Source: Fragilariopsis cylindrus CCMP1102 (Eukaryota > Bacillariophyta > Bacillariophyceae > Bacillariales > Bacillariaceae). Taken from it: 64,000 nucleotides of DNA. The stretch is from NCBI GenBank assembly GCA_900095095.1, contig FMBT01000289.1:248001-312000 (forward strand), read 5' to 3'. The number at the start of each line of letters is the position of its first letter. Position 1 is the first letter of the stretch. A program made the translations under genes and the position numbers. The notes beneath the pieces are model-generated. The model saw nothing but the letters and a program-made list of their open reading frames with translations, had not been told where the DNA came from and did not search any database. Positions 35,929-45,408 of this stretch are shown here, one piece after another.

Positions 35929-37749
35929 ATGTTAGCTGTCGGTAATAGAAAGACACAATCGAGATTATCGCAGTCGTCATCAATTTCACAACATGCGAAT
36001 AATGCTGGCGATGATGCTGCTGGCCAACAGTTCGACTCATCGTCATCGTCAACGTCGTCACGTCAAAAAACGAGGGGAGGATTGTGTAGTCGACTTTCCT
36101 TTTACGAGTCACCCCCAAGTGCTGATGTTGACATCGAAACATTCGAAACTTATGGGATTGCAAGGTTGCAAGGTAAGGAAAACAAACGAATATATATACA
36201 TGTGTATCTTCCTCTTTCGTTTCTTCTTCTTTTTCCACAACAAGCTTGCTTTGCTTGACAGGACTGATTGAATTCCTTCGCGAACAAAAATTTAATCGCA
36301 TTGGCCTTTCCCAAATGAATGAATTGATTGTCGAATAAACTAACCATCTCATGATTTTTTGCTTGTCATAATTTTTTTTAATATTTTATCATCAGTATTG
36401 CGCAGAATTGATGTGTTACAAGCACGGGGTGTCAAGGGGGATAAATTCGATAAGGAAATCAATAAGGCTGATTTAGAACAATTGTTCCACAACGGGAACA
36501 ACAACAACAACAACAACAACGGCAGTAGCTATAATAGCAATAGTAAGGATCATATTTCGCATTACATCCTTCGAATGGCCTATTGCCAAACCGAAGAATT
36601 ACGACGATGGTTTTTAACGAATGAATCTATTTTATTCAAAATTAGATTTCAAACATCGAAGGCTTCCGATGTGGATCACTTTTTGAGGGAACGAAAGTTG
36701 TTGTTGAAATACCCGCCGGTGAGTAGTAGTAATTCAATACTATGTGTTTTCTTTCTTCTCCTTTGTTCACATCGAAGTAGTTTGTTCCTAGATCGGTATC
36801 TCATTTCGCTCCCATCTTTCCTTCCTTTTTTTTCTGCTGCGACTACAACGTATTTCTCCTACTCCATTCTTGCGGTGGACAGATCAGTTACGAAGAAAAA
36901 ATGAGATTGAAACCGAAACTCCTCGGACTGGATAACGACGGCAGCAGTGCCTCAACCACAGAATTCAATTATAACAATTCGGAGTATTACAAAGTACCAT
37001 TCATGGATGTCCTGCAACTCGTTTCGAGAAGGGAAGTGTATTTGGAAGGTGGGTACGCGTACGTCTCCCGAACGAAGATTTTATCGATTGTGGAGGGAAA
37101 ATTCCGTACGTCTCTATCGAAAAATCTTGCTCTCGCGTATCAAATGCAATTTAAATGGTCGTCCGATAATACGCGTATCGGATCTATTGTGAATAGATTA
37201 AGCAAGGTCGCATTCCAGTACGGGGGTTCTACTACTAGCAATACTGCAATCGGTGGTGGTGGCAATAACGGTACTTTGAATTCACACGCGGTTTCACAAA
37301 TCTTCGTCGACTACTTAACGAGTGTCATGGGACACAGTGATCCCAAAATGAAACCTGCCGGTGTGAACAAAATGTTTGTCAGCATCGGTACGAGAAGGCC
37401 CAACACGGCCGACAAGACATGTCCCATCGCCAATCGCATCCACAAAAGCAACACCCAAAAATATACTATTTTCTTCGATACGTTGGTGATGCAACAGAGT
37501 TGTTGGGATGGTTGTTGTCAGGCGACCAACAAGCACGTGTACTATCAGATCCGTGACAATGGTCGTTGTGTCAAAGTCGGTTGGAATCCGCCACCACTAG
37601 ATACAAATATGATTGCAAATGCTGTATCTGGTTTAGGAAATAATGGTGGCAGTAGTAGTACCTTAGACAATAATGCCGCTACTACTACCCAAATGGCAAA
37701 GAAAATGAAACTATCTGGCACAAGCACGAGTATGAAAGTATCGCCTTAG
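35929..37749 (+). CDS. DNA primase large-subunit (PRI2) N-terminal domain fused to a PrimPol-like zinc knuckle (three exons)
   Basis: CDS join(35929..36172,36396..36718,36883..37749), 477 residues; introns GTAAGG..ATCAG and GTGAGT..GACAG. The first ~290 residues follow PRI2 closely: LSFYESPPSADVDIETFETYG, RLQVLRRIDVLQARG, DHISHYILRMAYCQTEELRRW, FL-NESILFKIRF, KYPPISYEEK, EYYKVPFMDVLQLVSRREVY, LEGGYAYVSRTKI and FRTSLSKNLALA. In normal PRI2 the next ~200 residues bind a 4Fe-4S cluster through four cysteines, starting at a 'PPCM' motif. That domain is absent. Instead, in the same exon, Cys369-x6-His376-x19-Cys396-x4-Cys401 appears, with IHKSNTQKYTI and SCWDGCC, as in the zinc knuckle of PrimPol/UL52-type primases. 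PRI2 binds the catalytic small subunit and hands primers to polymerase alpha; here template contact may use zinc. The C terminus is Asn/Ser/Thr-rich. The single continuous exon argues against a chance join. Confidence 0.85.
37420..37518 (+). other. PrimPol/UL52-like zinc-knuckle coding segment
   Basis: Codons for Cys369, His376, Cys396 and Cys401. The C-x6-H-x19-C-x4-C spacing equals that of the human PrimPol zinc finger (Cys419, His426, Cys446, Cys451 in published mutant studies). The His-Lys-Ser-Asn sequence after the histidine is also typical of that motif. Confidence 0.75.
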
Positions 37750-38386
37750 TTAGCAGATGGAGGAACAAAAGGAATTCGAATAATTGGAATATCCAATTCA
37801 ATAAAACTTTATAATGCATTCATGTATATACGTATTGCCAATTTTCGGGAAATGACATACTCCCGACATAATTTATTAGAATGAAGTGTACACAGTATGT
37901 TGTGTATTTCGTAAAGGAGTGATTTACTACTCCAAATAGCAAATAGCAAATAGCAAATAGCAATTAATAGTTGGACACACTCAAACACTCTGTTTTCCAT
38001 ATTATTTGACATAGCATAATAAAGTATTCTTAGAACAAGTACGGAACACACTTTAAATGTGAAACGCAGACAAAACATTTTTTTCGGGAAGCTACAGGGA
38101 TTTTTTTAATTGAATACAATGAATGGATTTTAAAATCAAAGGATAGATAAAGCGCGCAACAAACAAAACGCAAAATTAATGACTTCTTTCCGTCCTTCGT
38201 TCTAATCTGTGTGACCAATCAGTACGTTAGTAACGCCAACGACGAACAAGCATCCTACTGGTATCAGCCACAATTTCACATAAAGTACAGTAACAAGCAA
38301 TAAAGAAATAATCCTCTCACAATTTCACATCAAACGACAAAAGGAGTAACGAAATAATATAGCAATACAGTACTACAACGAAGCAA
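37750..38386. other. Intergenic, no gene seen
   Basis: 3' flank of the primase-like gene and upstream region of CDC123. It includes an AGCAAATAGCAAAT repeat at ~37936-37964 and AATTTCACAT copies near 38270 and 38320. Confidence 0.5.
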
Positions 38387-39802
38387 ATGACAATGGATCA
38401 ACAATCAGGAGGAATGGATGCGACGAAACAAGACAGTAACAATAACAATACTAACGAGAGTAGAGAGACTGACGCTGACGCTGACGCTGATGCTGATGCT
38501 GGTAGTTGTGGTCCTCGTCCAACAATTCGTGAAGTATTAGCTTGTCAAACTTCATCGTGGTATTCAACATTTTCAAATATTGTACCACTACTCAACAAAA
38601 ATGATAACAATGGCGAAAATGACAATGACAATAATAACAATGACAATCAAATCAAATTACGAAAAAATATAACAATCAAATCGGTAATAATATCAGGACA
38701 AGAATTATTAACAATAGCACCAACTTTTGAAAAATATTTATTATATGATGGTGTAAAATTACCACATGATGCTACAAAACTATCCTCTTGTGCTGGTTAT
38801 AGTAGTAACCGTGAAGTTACATTTGATTCTGATGATGAAGATGCTGGTTGGGGTGCAGGAGAATCAGATTCAGAAGTAGAAGGTTCAGATTCAGATTCAT
38901 TAGAAGAAAAAGAAGAAATTAATTTTCATTTTCCTCAATTAAATCAAAAAATCATGGATATTCTAAACAAAGGAAATCATAACAAAGGCAAAGGCAAAGC
39001 GTCCTTTGGGAATGATGGAGTAGTACCAAAATTAAATTGGTCTGCACCACGTGATTCTATCTGGATTAATGAAGGTACCTTAAAATGTCATACACCTGGT
39101 GATATATATTTATTACTAAAAAGTAGTGATTTTATAACCTATGATATATTATATAATTCATTGAAAGGTTGTTCGGATTATAATGACAATTTGATGACTT
39201 TATTTCCACCATTAGAATTAACATTAAAAAAATGGTGTAATTTAAATCCATGTCAAGAATTTCGTTGTTTTATCAGAAGAGATGAATTATTATGTGTATC
39301 TCAACGACAACATTCGGTCCATTATCCATATTTAATAGTGGATCAATATCGTATATTAGATCTAATTGATGATTTTTATGAGGATTATCAAATAACAAAA
39401 AGATTTAATTTACAATCACAGACACAATCACAGACGACATCACAGACACAAACACAGATTGAAAATTATGTGATGGATATATATATTGATAAAAAAGATA
39501 GAATATGGATATTAGATTTTAATCCATGGAGTACAAATACAGATTCATTATTGTATGATTGGAATGAATTAACATCCATGGATAACGATGATGATCACGA
39601 TGAGGATCGAATACGTATAACAGAAGCTGGTGGTTCACAAGTAAAACCTGATCCATTATCATCCTATCGTGCACCAATTGATACAGTTAATTTAGCATCA
39701 ATGACACAAAATGGTAATGATTCAAAACAATTTGAAGAATTTATGAAATTATGTCAAAAACGACCAACGTATTGGGAAGATAATGATGAAGATAGTGAAT
39801 GA
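38387..39802 (+). CDS. CDC123: CDC123/D123 family protein, eIF2 assembly chaperone
   Basis: 471 residues, intronless. It covers the whole D123 fold of ATP-grasp type. VLACQTSSWYSTFSNIVP at the start corresponds to the 'C....WY..F' block. VVPKLNWSAPRDSIWI is the strongest family signature (PKLNWS.P.DA.W). The later parts LELTLKKWCNLNPCQEFRCF, FIRRDELLCVSQR, YVMDIYIDKKDRIWILDFN and PWSTNTDSLLYDWNEL match too; the acidic residues in DIYID and ILDFNP hold ATP and Mg. In yeast and animals the protein joins eIF2 gamma to alpha during eIF2 assembly and so controls translation and cell-cycle entry. Insertions of Asn/Asp, (DA)n and Gln/Thr runs make it longer than the usual ~340 residues. An acidic insertion (SDDEDAGWGAGESDSE) precedes the core. 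It is in the cytosol by family. Confidence 0.92.
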   Translation: MTMDQQSGGMDATKQDSNNNNTNESRETDADADADADAGSCGPRPTIREVLACQTSSWYSTFSNIVPLLNKNDNNGENDNDNNNNDNQIKLRKNITIKSVIISGQELLTIAPTFEKYLLYDGVKLPHDATKLSSCAGYSSNREVTFDSDDEDAGWGAGESDSEVEGSDSDSLEEKEEINFHFPQLNQKIMDILNKGNHNKGKGKASFGNDGVVPKLNWSAPRDSIWINEGTLKCHTPGDIYLLLKSSDFITYDILYNSLKGCSDYNDNLMTLFPPLELTLKKWCNLNPCQEFRCFIRRDELLCVSQRQHSVHYPYLIVDQYRILDLIDDFYEDYQITKRFNLQSQTQSQTTSQTQTQIENYVMDIYIDKKDRIWILDFNPWSTNTDSLLYDWNELTSMDNDDDHDEDRIRITEAGGSQVKPDPLSSYRAPIDTVNLASMTQNGNDSKQFEEFMKLCQKRPTYWEDNDEDSE

Positions 39803-40557: not shown

Positions 40558-40977
40558 TTAAAGTAATGTTTCCTCCAATTTCACTAAAAGTTTATCAATA
40601 GCTTCCATCTTAAATGGTTTGGTTACGAAATCGATCCCACCTGCATTCAAGGCCTTTTCTTTGAATTCAACTAATGCGTGTGCTGTTACAAATATAACAT
40701 TCGCATTTTCTTTACCATCACGTTTTACAATTTGCCGGCATGCCTCCAGGCCATCCATTATTGGCATCTGCATATCCATTAAGATACAATCATAATTTGT
40801 TATAAAAGATGCATCGACTGCCTTCTTCCCGTCATCAACAATAGTAATATCGGTAACACCAAGATGTTTCAGTATGCGATCTATTACCTTCTGATTGATT
40901 ATATTATCCTCAGCGACCAATATCTTCAATGCACGTGGAGGGTATATCTTCGACTTTCGTCTTGGTGTAGGTTGGAG

Positions 40978-41008
<31 letters not shown>

Positions 41009-43792
41009 GGGGTGCTCGTCGTCATCGTCGTCGTCGTCGTCATCGTAGCTTCTTCTGCAGTCGTCGCCGTTTTTATGGCGGTTACTGGTGGCGTTGCCGA
41101 TGTTGACGACGATGGCGGCGTATTCTTTTTTCTGTCACTATTATCTTTGATACCTTCTATCACTTTTAAGAACTCGTGAATATCTTGCATTTTTAATGGT
41201 TTTGAAATATAATCGAATGCACCAGCTGCATCTGCTTTTTCTCTGATATCCGCAATATCATGCGCTGTAACAAATACTACCTTCGAATTGTATTTACCGT
41301 CTCTGGCGACAATAATCTTACATGCCTCTAAGCCACCCATAATTGGCATCTCCATATCCATGAAGATACAATCAAATTTCGTGGTTGCAGAAGTATCAAC
41401 AGCTTTCTTTCCGTTATCAACGATGGTTACATCCGTCACACCAAGACGTTTGAGTATCCTGTCCAAAACCTTCTGGTTGATAGCATTATCGTCTGCTATA
41501 AGAACCTTCAATGATCGCGGAGGATACTTTGTAGCAAATTTTCTCCTGGGGGATGCACCAGGACTTTTAGGAGGACCAACCACAACCGGTTGTGCCGACG
41601 GTAGATCCTCGGGAAGAGGAGTCGTCTCATTTTCTGAGACCACTTCGGAATTTTGTATACCATTGTTTTGGCGATCAAAATCGACGATCTCAAATATTTT
41701 GTCAAGTATTATAGATGGGAACATTCCTGTTAGTGTTTTGAAATGACGCTTTTGATTGGTGCTACGGCCAACAGAATCCGACCCGAACGTGAACCACGAA
41801 CATCGATCTCGATCGACGAGTTTCTCAACGTTTGCTATACCATCTTGATGTTCGATGTCCTCTTGTGCAAGAAAGACATAATTTTCTCTGACATTAGCTC
41901 TCAAACCAAGTTTGCTTTCGAGTTCTCCCCAACTAGAGCATCTGAGAATGTTCAGGCCGTACCGTTTAACAACGGCAGGTGCAAAAGGAATGAATTCATC
42001 TTTACCATCATCTTCCTCCAACGGAATCGTGCAGTTAGTGCTGGTGCTGGTACTGCATGCAATACTACTTGTTGGTTTCACCTCTTTTGGTGGTGTCGAA
42101 TCTAAAATAACGATCGCAGTTTCCAATGCCTTTTCTTTGTAAACAGTAGTATCGAATAATTCTTCATTGTATGGTAACTCTACGATGAATTCGGTAAATT
42201 TTTCAATTTCGGATTTGATTGATATCGTCCCACCAAGTCTGGAAACTAGATTCTTCGTAATAGATAGACCTAGACCCGTTCCACCGTACACCGTTTGAGT
42301 TTCCTTACTAGCTTGAGAAAAGGGTTGAAAGATTTTTTCAAAATCATTCTCGTCGATCCCCTTACCATGATCCTTTATAGAGAACTGGATCTTATTAGCA
42401 CATGCAGTAGTGAAAGTAGATGTGTTCTTGTAACCGTTATCTTTGTTCCATGACGACGAAGACTCAACAACACGGACCTTCAAATCAATTGTAGTCCCTT
42501 CGCGACTAAACTTAGCAGCATTACCTAATATGTTATATAAGATTTGTTGTAATCGACGACTATCGGTTGTCATCATTTTTTGTAGAAGTCCATCATAACT
42601 CGTTCGGACTTCAACATTCTTATCCTGAAGTTTATTAGAAATCGAATGGACTACACCATTCAATGCTGATTGTAGATCACTTGGTTTAATATCCAATTCG
42701 AAATGTCCACTTTCAATCTTTGCATAATCAAGCACGTCATTAACAACCCCTTGGACTAAATCAGCACTATTGTATACCATATTGACAGTATCAATTAATT
42801 CTTCATCGAGATCATCATTTTCTAATAATAATGATGATAAACCAACGATACAATTTAATGGAGTACGAATTTCATGACTCATACATGCAAAATGTTCAAG
42901 TTGCTTTGATGCGTGTCGTGATATTTCTGCATTAGCTTCCTCCAGTTTACGATTTGCTGTTTCTAATTCTGTTGTCCGATCATCAATTTCAGATTCCATC
43001 CTATCTGTTAATGTTTTCAATACTAAATCATTCGTATGGAGTCTCATTATTGTTGTCAATGCTGGATGTGTCAATTGAAAAAATTGTATATCATCATCAC
43101 AAAATCCATCTGGACATTTTGTTGACCATGCGAGTCCACCCTTCGATACACCTCGATGTATATCTGGCAATGCAAAATAATCTACATAATTACCACCCCG
43201 GAACCATTTTTCTGTATCAGGTGGTATATACGTATCTGTTTTACGTATACGTACATAATCGGCACGGCCTTGTTCTAGTACACAAAATGGTTCATCTGGA
43301 CTAAAAATTTCATTCCGTCTTGCAAATATATGAGCTGGCATTTCATTATGAACAAATTCAACATGGGGTTCCCATTTCCATAGGTATGCTGTTAATTTTG
43401 GATGTAAACCAACTCCACCATAATATAATCGATCTAATGGTATACCAAAATGGTCACGAACATATAATGAATATTGTGTCATTAATGTTTGAACATCTTC
43501 GAAGTGACCACCCTCAATGAATAACCATCGATGTATTTCTTCTACGGCCATCTGTACATGCAAAGGTGCTGTTCGAATCCTTTTTGGTATCCCATCACTA
43601 GTACCACTCCCACTCCCACGATGATGTCGTGCTGTTGTTGATCCAAAACCACTACTATTATTGATACCACTACTTCCTCCACCACTCAATGAGGAAGTAA
43701 CAGAAGGTTCTTGTTGTGGTACTTGTACTTGTCGTACTTTTTGTTGACGATTGTTACTATTACTCGCATTATTATTATCATTATTGTTTGCA

Positions 43793-43824
<32 letters not shown>

Positions 43825-44731
43825 CGCATCATCATCATTATTCGCTGTAGTTGTTTCTGTTTCTGTTATTTGGACAGCAGCAGTACGCTCACGTTCATGT
43901 TTTTGTTGTTGTTGACGTTGTTGCTTTTGTTGTTGCTTACGTTTCATTTCATGTATATTAACAATACCATATTTACGTAATCTTGAACTAATATGTTCAC
44001 CACCTCTTGAAGCGGAAGATGAAATTGAATTTGCTATTGTTGTATCACTTGTATTAGATGATATTGTACCACCACCACCATTCAATGTCGAACCAGTAGT
44101 AACACCATCACTAATAACACTAGTAGCACTACTATTAGCTAGATTGGAAGTGGAATTATTTCCACTACTGCTAGATGTGTTGGTCGTATCGATATTTGTA
44201 CTACCACCCCCCATAGTACTTGTGCATATTGTATTACCATCATCATCAACAACGTAGTCATTCCCATCAGAGCTACTATTAAAATACATACCACTACTAT
44301 CATCAATGGTACATTGTGTATAGCAACTAGCATCATCATTGTCATTGTCATTCTCATTGTCGTTGTCATTCTCGGTATTATTACTACTGTCATTTTGTTG
44401 TTGTTCATCGAATGGTTCCATCATTGTCAACGGAGGAGATGGCAATTTCATTTTAATACTGTTATTATTATTACGTCCTGCTCCCCATCGTTGATATATA
44501 CTATTTGCCGGTACTGGTGTTAGCTGGTGCTGATGTTGATGTTGATGCTGACGTTGACATGTCTGTTGTTCACATGGTTGTTGATATTTTCTTATCGTTT
44601 CCAACGGAGGATGATGAGAAGAAGGACCACTTATGCAATGAATTTCTAATGCAGACGAAGAATGTCCAGAGGAGGAGGGAGAATTTGAATTTGGTACTAT
44701 GTTTTTTAGTATGACAACAGCAGTGTTGTCA

Positions 44732-44763
<32 letters not shown>

Positions 44764-45408
44764 TTGGTTATCGTTTTGGTTAGTGATCGATTCGTCGAAT
44801 TGTTGTTGTAAAGACGATGATGAATGATTATTGCCATTCCTATAATCTTCATTTATTATTACTATTATATCGTCGTCGTTAGAAGCTGTTGTTGCTGTTA
44901 TTGTTGTTGACGTTGATGTTGTTGAATCAAAAATCTTATTAATATCGGGCGGCGGTACCGTCCTTGATGTGTCGTCATTTATGTCTAATAATATTATTTC
45001 CTCCGTTACCGCTGGTAATAAGGAGTTGCTATTATTCCCGCTGCTACTGCTATTAAAAGATGATCTTCTTGATCTTCTTCTTACTGGTCTTGTTGTTGAT
45101 GATCCTACTATAGCAGTAGCAGCAGCAGAGGTCGTCGTCGTCGTTGTTGTTAGATCTATGTAAGCATAAGCATTTAAATCATTATCGTCGTCGTCGTCGT
45201 CGTCTTCGTCGTCGTGATTTGTTATAGTAATTGTATTCCCCTCCTGCTCTTCAATTTCTTCTTCAATTTCTTCTTCGTCGTCGTCGTACCGGTCAAGTAT
45301 TATATCAGTGTTCGTGTTTGTGTTCGTGATGGTGTTCTCAGTATTATCCCCATCACCATCCCTCTGACGAGGAATAATGTTATGATTATGTTGTGCCGCC
45401 GTCATCAC
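40558..45408 (-). CDS. Hybrid histidine kinase with two receiver domains
   Basis: 1616 residues, intronless. Residues 1-~605 are Asn/Asp/Ser/Gln/Thr-rich and probably disordered. Residues ~610-800 form a sensor-like region (VQMAVEEIHRWLFIEGGH, DHFGIPLDRLYYGGVGLHP) that resembles the N-terminal domain found before class III cyclases. A coiled coil (~800-835) leads to the HisKA helix with His845 in HFACMSHEIRTPLN. The ATPase has the N box NILGNAAKF (~957), DHGKGID and GTGLGLSI (~1042). Next is a degenerate receiver-like region, then REC1 (~1297, LIADDNAINQK, phospho-Asp1351 in FMDMEMP, Lys in ISKPLK) and REC2 (~1491, LVAEDNIINQK, Asp1545 in LMDMQMP, Lys in VTKPFK), separated by a polyQ/Thr linker. 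The two receivers are ~60% alike, an internal duplication. No membrane segment is seen, so it is a cytosolic or nuclear sensor starting a phosphorelay. Confidence 0.93.

Follow-up and report, generated by a model that had tools for sequence, protein, structure and literature searches.

A diatom gene joining the scaffold of the primase large subunit to a putative PrimPol-type zinc knuckle

In the normal primase, a tethered Fe-S domain holds the template and the initiating nucleotide. A gene of Fragilariopsis cylindrus CCMP1102 raises the question of what a primase large subunit might do when this domain is gone and the polypeptide carries a putative zinc knuckle instead. It is located on contig FMBT01000289.1 in a stretch of 64,000 nucleotides (positions 248,001 to 312,000 of the forward strand), which is referred to as the window. 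In an earlier note, made from the letters of the window, the gene was described as a large-subunit gene whose Fe-S domain is replaced by a knuckle of the PrimPol type. It had to be asked whether both halves of this description hold, whether the gene stands in for the regular large subunit or beside it, and which function could be assigned to its product.

Gene model and primase scaffold

The gene is read on the plus strand from three exons, which join in frame to give a protein of 477 amino acids (Table 1). Its codons are free of stops and frameshifts, both introns are of the GT...AG type with canonical splice sites, and it is a single occurrence in the genome, as judged from a genome search. 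Codon usage of linker, knuckle and tail taken jointly gave a score of 20.2 in their own frame versus at most -30.7 in the other frames, the latter value being partly owed to the stops in those frames.

Residues 53-310 correspond to the N-terminal domain of PRI2 (PriL). The best match in the PDB, 8g99_C, was obtained with phmmer at E 3.1e-38, and this match, along with the GT-AG model, upholds the earlier assignment of the N-terminal half to PRI2 over three exons. All ten distinct PDB sequences found by phmmer at E<=1 are primase large subunits, one of them fused with Pol alpha. The Pfam family PF04104 is matched by residues 224-296 (E 6.1e-11), and the N-terminal-domain construct 4bpu_B is matched with 125.6 bits by the window protein and with 110.0 bits by the canonical diatom PRI2. 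Among 66 positions conserved between the canonical copy and two animal sequences, 47 are kept in the window protein. On sequence grounds, the PRI2 domain is certain and its scaffold is evidently still under constraint.

Table 1. Features of the gene, with positions counted from the first letter of the window
Feature	Positions	Strand	Remarks
Exon 1	35929..36172	+	residues 1-81 plus the opening base of codon 82; N-terminus of low complexity; PRI2 N-terminal domain begins at residue 53
Intron 1	36173..36395	+	GTAAGG...CATCAG, 223 nt, phase 1
Exon 2	36396..36718	+	mid-part of PRI2 N-terminal domain, contains DHISHYILRMAYCQTEELRRWF
Intron 2	36719..36882	+	GTGAGT...GGACAG, 164 nt, phase 0
Exon 3, including stop codon	36883..37749	+	end of PRI2 N-terminal domain, linker, knuckle and low-complexity tail in a single open frame
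Stretch matched by PF04104	36985..37206	+	from six-frame genome search; confined to profile positions 2-80 of 266
Linker, residues 311-352	37246..37371	+	without family match
UL52/PrimPol-like putative zinc-binding region, residues 353-411	37372..37548	+	PF03121 positions 8-71 of 75, 17 bits, below cut-off
Knuckle core C369-x6-H376-KSN-x16-C396-x4-C401	37420..37518	+	
Low-complexity tail, residues 412-477	37549..37746	+	terminates in KKMKLSGTSTSMKVSP

The 4Fe-4S domain is missing, as had been stated in the earlier note. This follows from a search of all six frames of the 67.9-Mb genome with PF04104, in which the window gene is touched only in the first part of the profile (Table 1) and the set of four Fe-S cysteines was not found in it. 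An Fe-S domain concealed by a frameshift or located on a downstream exon is ruled out by the same search, and none was seen by eye in the three plus frames of positions 37750-38390. PF04104 and PF03121 are the only Pfam families found in the 477 amino acids at E<=1, the catalytic AEP domain being absent.

Host primase genes and age of the paralogue

The earlier note had proposed a search for a full-length PRI2, and a complete canonical copy (PF04104 positions 3-266) was indeed found in the same genome, on a stretch of 3786 bases that is identical on contigs C90 and C597. The cysteines C285, C360, C377 and C417 of its open frame align with the four Fe-S cysteines of the solved PRI2. Because the genome holds this canonical PRI2 with its four Fe-S cysteines, the window gene is an extra paralogue and no replacement, and its interpretation as a substitute for PRI2 is ruled out. 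From the three origins considered in the earlier note, namely a diatom primase variant, a specialised translesion or organelle primase factor, and a neofunctionalised paralogue, a diverged paralogue fits best, given the separate canonical gene.

A further PRI2 copy, on contig C471, carries stops. The genome also gave 27 matches to the silicon transporter family PF03842, as expected of a diatom. PRIM1 (PF01896) is found in two pieces on contig C340, while a PRIM1 fragment on C589 resembles a second copy of the C340 place. Redundant contigs are thus observed in the assembly both for PRI2 (C90/C597, C471) and for PRIM1 (C340/C589). The host also has a PrimPol gene on contig C80 (L007 380-1680), in which CRLYFDLEFS, FSRHW and CELVGRSHKSNN...CHDPDC can be made out in changing frames; the changes of frame may be due to introns, assembly errors or decay.

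Within the N-terminal domain, window protein and canonical copy share 37.0% of their residues (85/230). Identity of the window protein to two animal sequences, whose origin we take to be human and another animal, amounts to 35.9% (89/248) and 37.8% (95/251), respectively; for the canonical copy, the corresponding values are 34.8 and 35.2%. Since the two diatom copies are as far apart from each other as from animal PRI2, the duplication is old, or else both copies evolved fast. Intron 1 of the window gene (36172/36396) and the intron of canonical PRI2 (L001 near 2896/2656, minus strand) occupy the same place, RLQ/VL versus RLK/VL, with a phase offset of one nucleotide, and this near-identical intron place fits a paralogy of the two genes. 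Intron 2 is without counterpart in the open frame of canonical PRI2. Similar ends are seen in the window gene (37702-37749, KKMKLSGTSTSMKVSP) and in the canonical gene (L001 1372-1410, minus strand, QKMKEPISVSP), the resemblance being short. The two tails may represent a shared ancestral end and, if so, the Fe-S domain would have been replaced internally.

The putative C-terminal knuckle

The putative ligands of the knuckle, C369, H376, C396 and C401, are spaced by x6, x19 and x4 and are encoded by the exon in which the PRI2 domain ends. The zinc-finger ligands of human PrimPol are given as C419, H426, C446 and C451 (PMC4027207); the spacing is identical, and the HKSN motif is present. Translation and comparison with that publication confirmed what the earlier note had read here, that is, a knuckle with human PrimPol spacing and HKSN in one uninterrupted exon.

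Three cuts of the protein were matched to PF03121 (Herpes_UL52) with 14.2, 16.2 and 17.0 bits (E 0.042, 0.01 and 0.0056), all below the curated cut-off of 21 bits. The finger of the host PrimPol reached 25.3 bits in the same scan, and none of seven shuffled sequences, four of them holding the four C/H positions and three free, was matched by the profile. In a gapless comparison with the host PrimPol knuckle, from which the seven motif residues were taken out, 5 of 34 positions are identical and the BLOSUM62 sum is -2; this likeness outside the motif exceeds that of 19,866 out of 20,000 shuffles and is reached by the remaining 134. The residues R417, R424, M432 and H447 of PrimPol, which serve in binding the template and the 5'-triphosphate at initiation, correspond to K367, R374, K382 and W397 of the window knuckle. 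R417 and R424 are described as required for binding of the 5'-triphosphate (PMC10415149), and of these two arginines R424 is retained (R374) and R417 is changed to lysine (K367).

Pairwise and PDB searches gave no link between the knuckle and PrimPol. When used as pairwise query in the genome, the knuckle matched itself once and did not retrieve the host PrimPol, while a whole-genome search with PF03121 at E<=10 scored four candidates, three of which were listed, with the window gene not among them. One place from this profile, on contig C139 (L021), has 20.1 bits and, by eye and viewed in part, consists of simple-sequence DNA; a further one is on C138 (L022). No primase was retrieved from the PDB with the knuckle, either as a single sequence or as a profile of two sequences, and AlphaFold runs without alignment gave mean pLDDT values of 31.9 and 38.6, neither model being usable. 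Unrelated NCBIfam and PHROG models reached 16.0 and 18.5 bits on exon 3, which is probably due to chance. The PHROG match is to phrog_22386, of unknown function, and covers residues 27-71 of exon 3, inside the PRI2 part.

The profile score by itself does not settle the matter, and weight is carried by the exact motif and by its location in a primase subunit. Homology of the knuckle to the PrimPol/UL52 finger is probable, albeit unproven because the profile match lies under the curated cut-off. The identity proposed in the earlier note is thus sustained by motif and spacing and falls short in the PF03121 score, at most 17.0 bits against the required 21. With its basis in the motif, its spacing and a profile similarity below threshold, the knuckle assignment is only probable, while that of PRI2 is certain.

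Proposed function and alternative explanations

There is about an even chance that the window protein serves as a second, specialised primase large subunit which docks on PRIM1 and brings in an initiation module of the PrimPol type. Docking would occur through the N-terminal domain, as it does in normal primase, and a gene for the partner PRIM1 is present on C340. For PriS and the N-terminal domain of PriL, binding at 0.46 nM without the C-terminal domain is reported (PMC4434180). The zinc-based initiation module would then be supplied by the knuckle. According to published work, the Fe-S domain of PriL and the zinc finger of PrimPol each hold the 5'-triphosphate of the primer, and a published model assigns the two a like action although their folds and metals are unrelated (PMC10415149). 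The resulting Fe-S-free primase would act beside the normal one and serve a subset of priming events, such as repriming, a life-cycle stage or iron shortage; we infer that the window protein might permit priming in the diatom when iron is short.

With PRI2/PRIM2 (PriL), the window protein has the whole N-terminal domain in common and differs in being devoid of the Fe-S C-terminal domain. With the PrimPol/UL52 finger (PF03121) it shares the C-H-C-C arrangement at human PrimPol spacing, HKSN and a 17-bit match, while it differs from PrimPol in the missing AEP domain, the unreached cut-off and the changed equivalents of M432 and H447. The Sulfolobus PriSLX system and the PriL-PriX chimera likewise present a large-subunit scaffold in which the Fe-S domain is swapped for another initiation module, and S. 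solfataricus PriL fused to PriX in place of its Fe-S domain retained wild-type primer synthesis (PMC5700102). That chimera, however, is engineered, and PriX is structurally related to the PriL Fe-S domain (PMC5700102), whereas the window gene is natural and its newcomer is a putative zinc knuckle of another fold. Initiation domains are also exchanged as modules in PolpTN2 and in mobile-element primases that bear PriCT (PMC5862659, PMC4538821); in these an AEP domain is fused to a PriL-like or PriCT part, while in the window protein a PriL scaffold is combined with a putative finger of the PrimPol type, and an AEP domain is absent.

More tentatively, a duplicated PRI2 scaffold together with a PrimPol initiation finger could constitute an evolved, second, Fe-S-free eukaryotic primase; this would correspond in nature to the PriL-PriX chimera and would test in vivo whether two unrelated metal domains are interchangeable as holders of the 5' end. 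For eukaryotic primase it has been debated whether the Fe-S cluster serves chemistry or merely a fold gripping the primer 5' end (PMC5700102). A large subunit that naturally has a zinc finger in this place, if true, would make this debate testable in a eukaryote with the same scaffold, the same PRIM1 and another metal module. Such a subunit would also mean that the PrimPol finger and the C-terminal domain of PRI2 can stand in for each other, as is suggested by the model in PMC10415149 and, if functional, it would be a case in nature in which one device for starting primers has been exchanged for another.

A somewhat unlikely alternative is a regulatory paralogue without a role in priming, which would occupy PRIM1/Pol alpha, bind only single-stranded DNA by its knuckle, and compete with or target the normal primase. 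It would agree with a conserved scaffold beside a knuckle in which two of the four inspected PrimPol initiation residues are altered (K382, W397), and with the single-stranded DNA binding described for the isolated zinc-finger region of PrimPol (PMC4027207); the retention of one triphosphate-binding arginine (R374), with a lysine at the place of the other (K367), argues against it and for the second large subunit. It is improbable that the knuckle is fortuitous, that is, a chance C-H-C-C in the low-complexity coding tail left after loss of the Fe-S domain. In favour of chance, N, S, T and G abound in this region, the profile score is below cut-off and similar to those of the unrelated models, and the frame of the knuckle core, taken by itself, is not supported by codon usage (-5.5, versus +5.3 in the best other frame). 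Against chance stand seven fixed residues at exact spacing, whose DNA pattern has a single occurrence in the window and none in 100 shuffles of it, a rough expectation of 6e-9 in about 160 positions for a motif that was picked post hoc, and a UL52 match which reaches beyond the cysteines over most of the profile.

A decaying duplicate, or an artefact of assembly or gene model by which two loci were joined, is considered quite improbable. Although the assembly is redundant and error-laden, as seen from the PRI2 stretch repeated on C90 and C597 and from the stops in the C471 copy, the window gene has canonical splice sites and intact codons throughout, its scaffold is at least as near to animal PRI2 as the canonical copy, and the join between the two parts falls within one open frame on a contig of 1.26 Mb. 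The motif KKMK in the tail, which we take to match the consensus of a monopartite nuclear localisation signal, stands against a specialised organelle or translesion primase factor, a very improbable reading even though the basic, serine-rich N-terminus MLAVGNRKTQSRLSQSSSISQH could be a presequence. The activity of PrimPol in mitochondria (PMC4027207) would likewise suit such a factor. On the whole, the observations on the gene give no pointer to a translesion or organelle role.

Relatives were sought in viral and prokaryotic collections, which contain few eukaryotes, so that absence from them says little about other diatoms. In viral contigs, the exon-3 protein gave one pattern stretch and a two-sequence alignment with canonical PRI2 gave 64, while the knuckle alignment gave 232 stretches there and 115 in prokaryotic genome contigs; none of these was confirmed. 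No match was obtained by tblastn in phages. Two DNA patterns of the knuckle hit one and no stretch of the viral contigs, respectively. The viral stretch L020 is regarded as a chance occurrence, being located on the minus strand beneath a plus frame of 807 amino acids, with no minus frame of at least 150 amino acids listed. By title and abstract, no description of a fusion between PRI2 and a PrimPol finger was found in the open-licence literature; the parts are known, and their combination appears to be new. In the window, the gene has as neighbours a DXD sugar-transferase (PF04488; 32127-33122, plus strand), a D123 family protein (PF07065; 38387-39802, plus strand) and a hybrid histidine kinase with response-regulator domains (40558-45405, minus strand).
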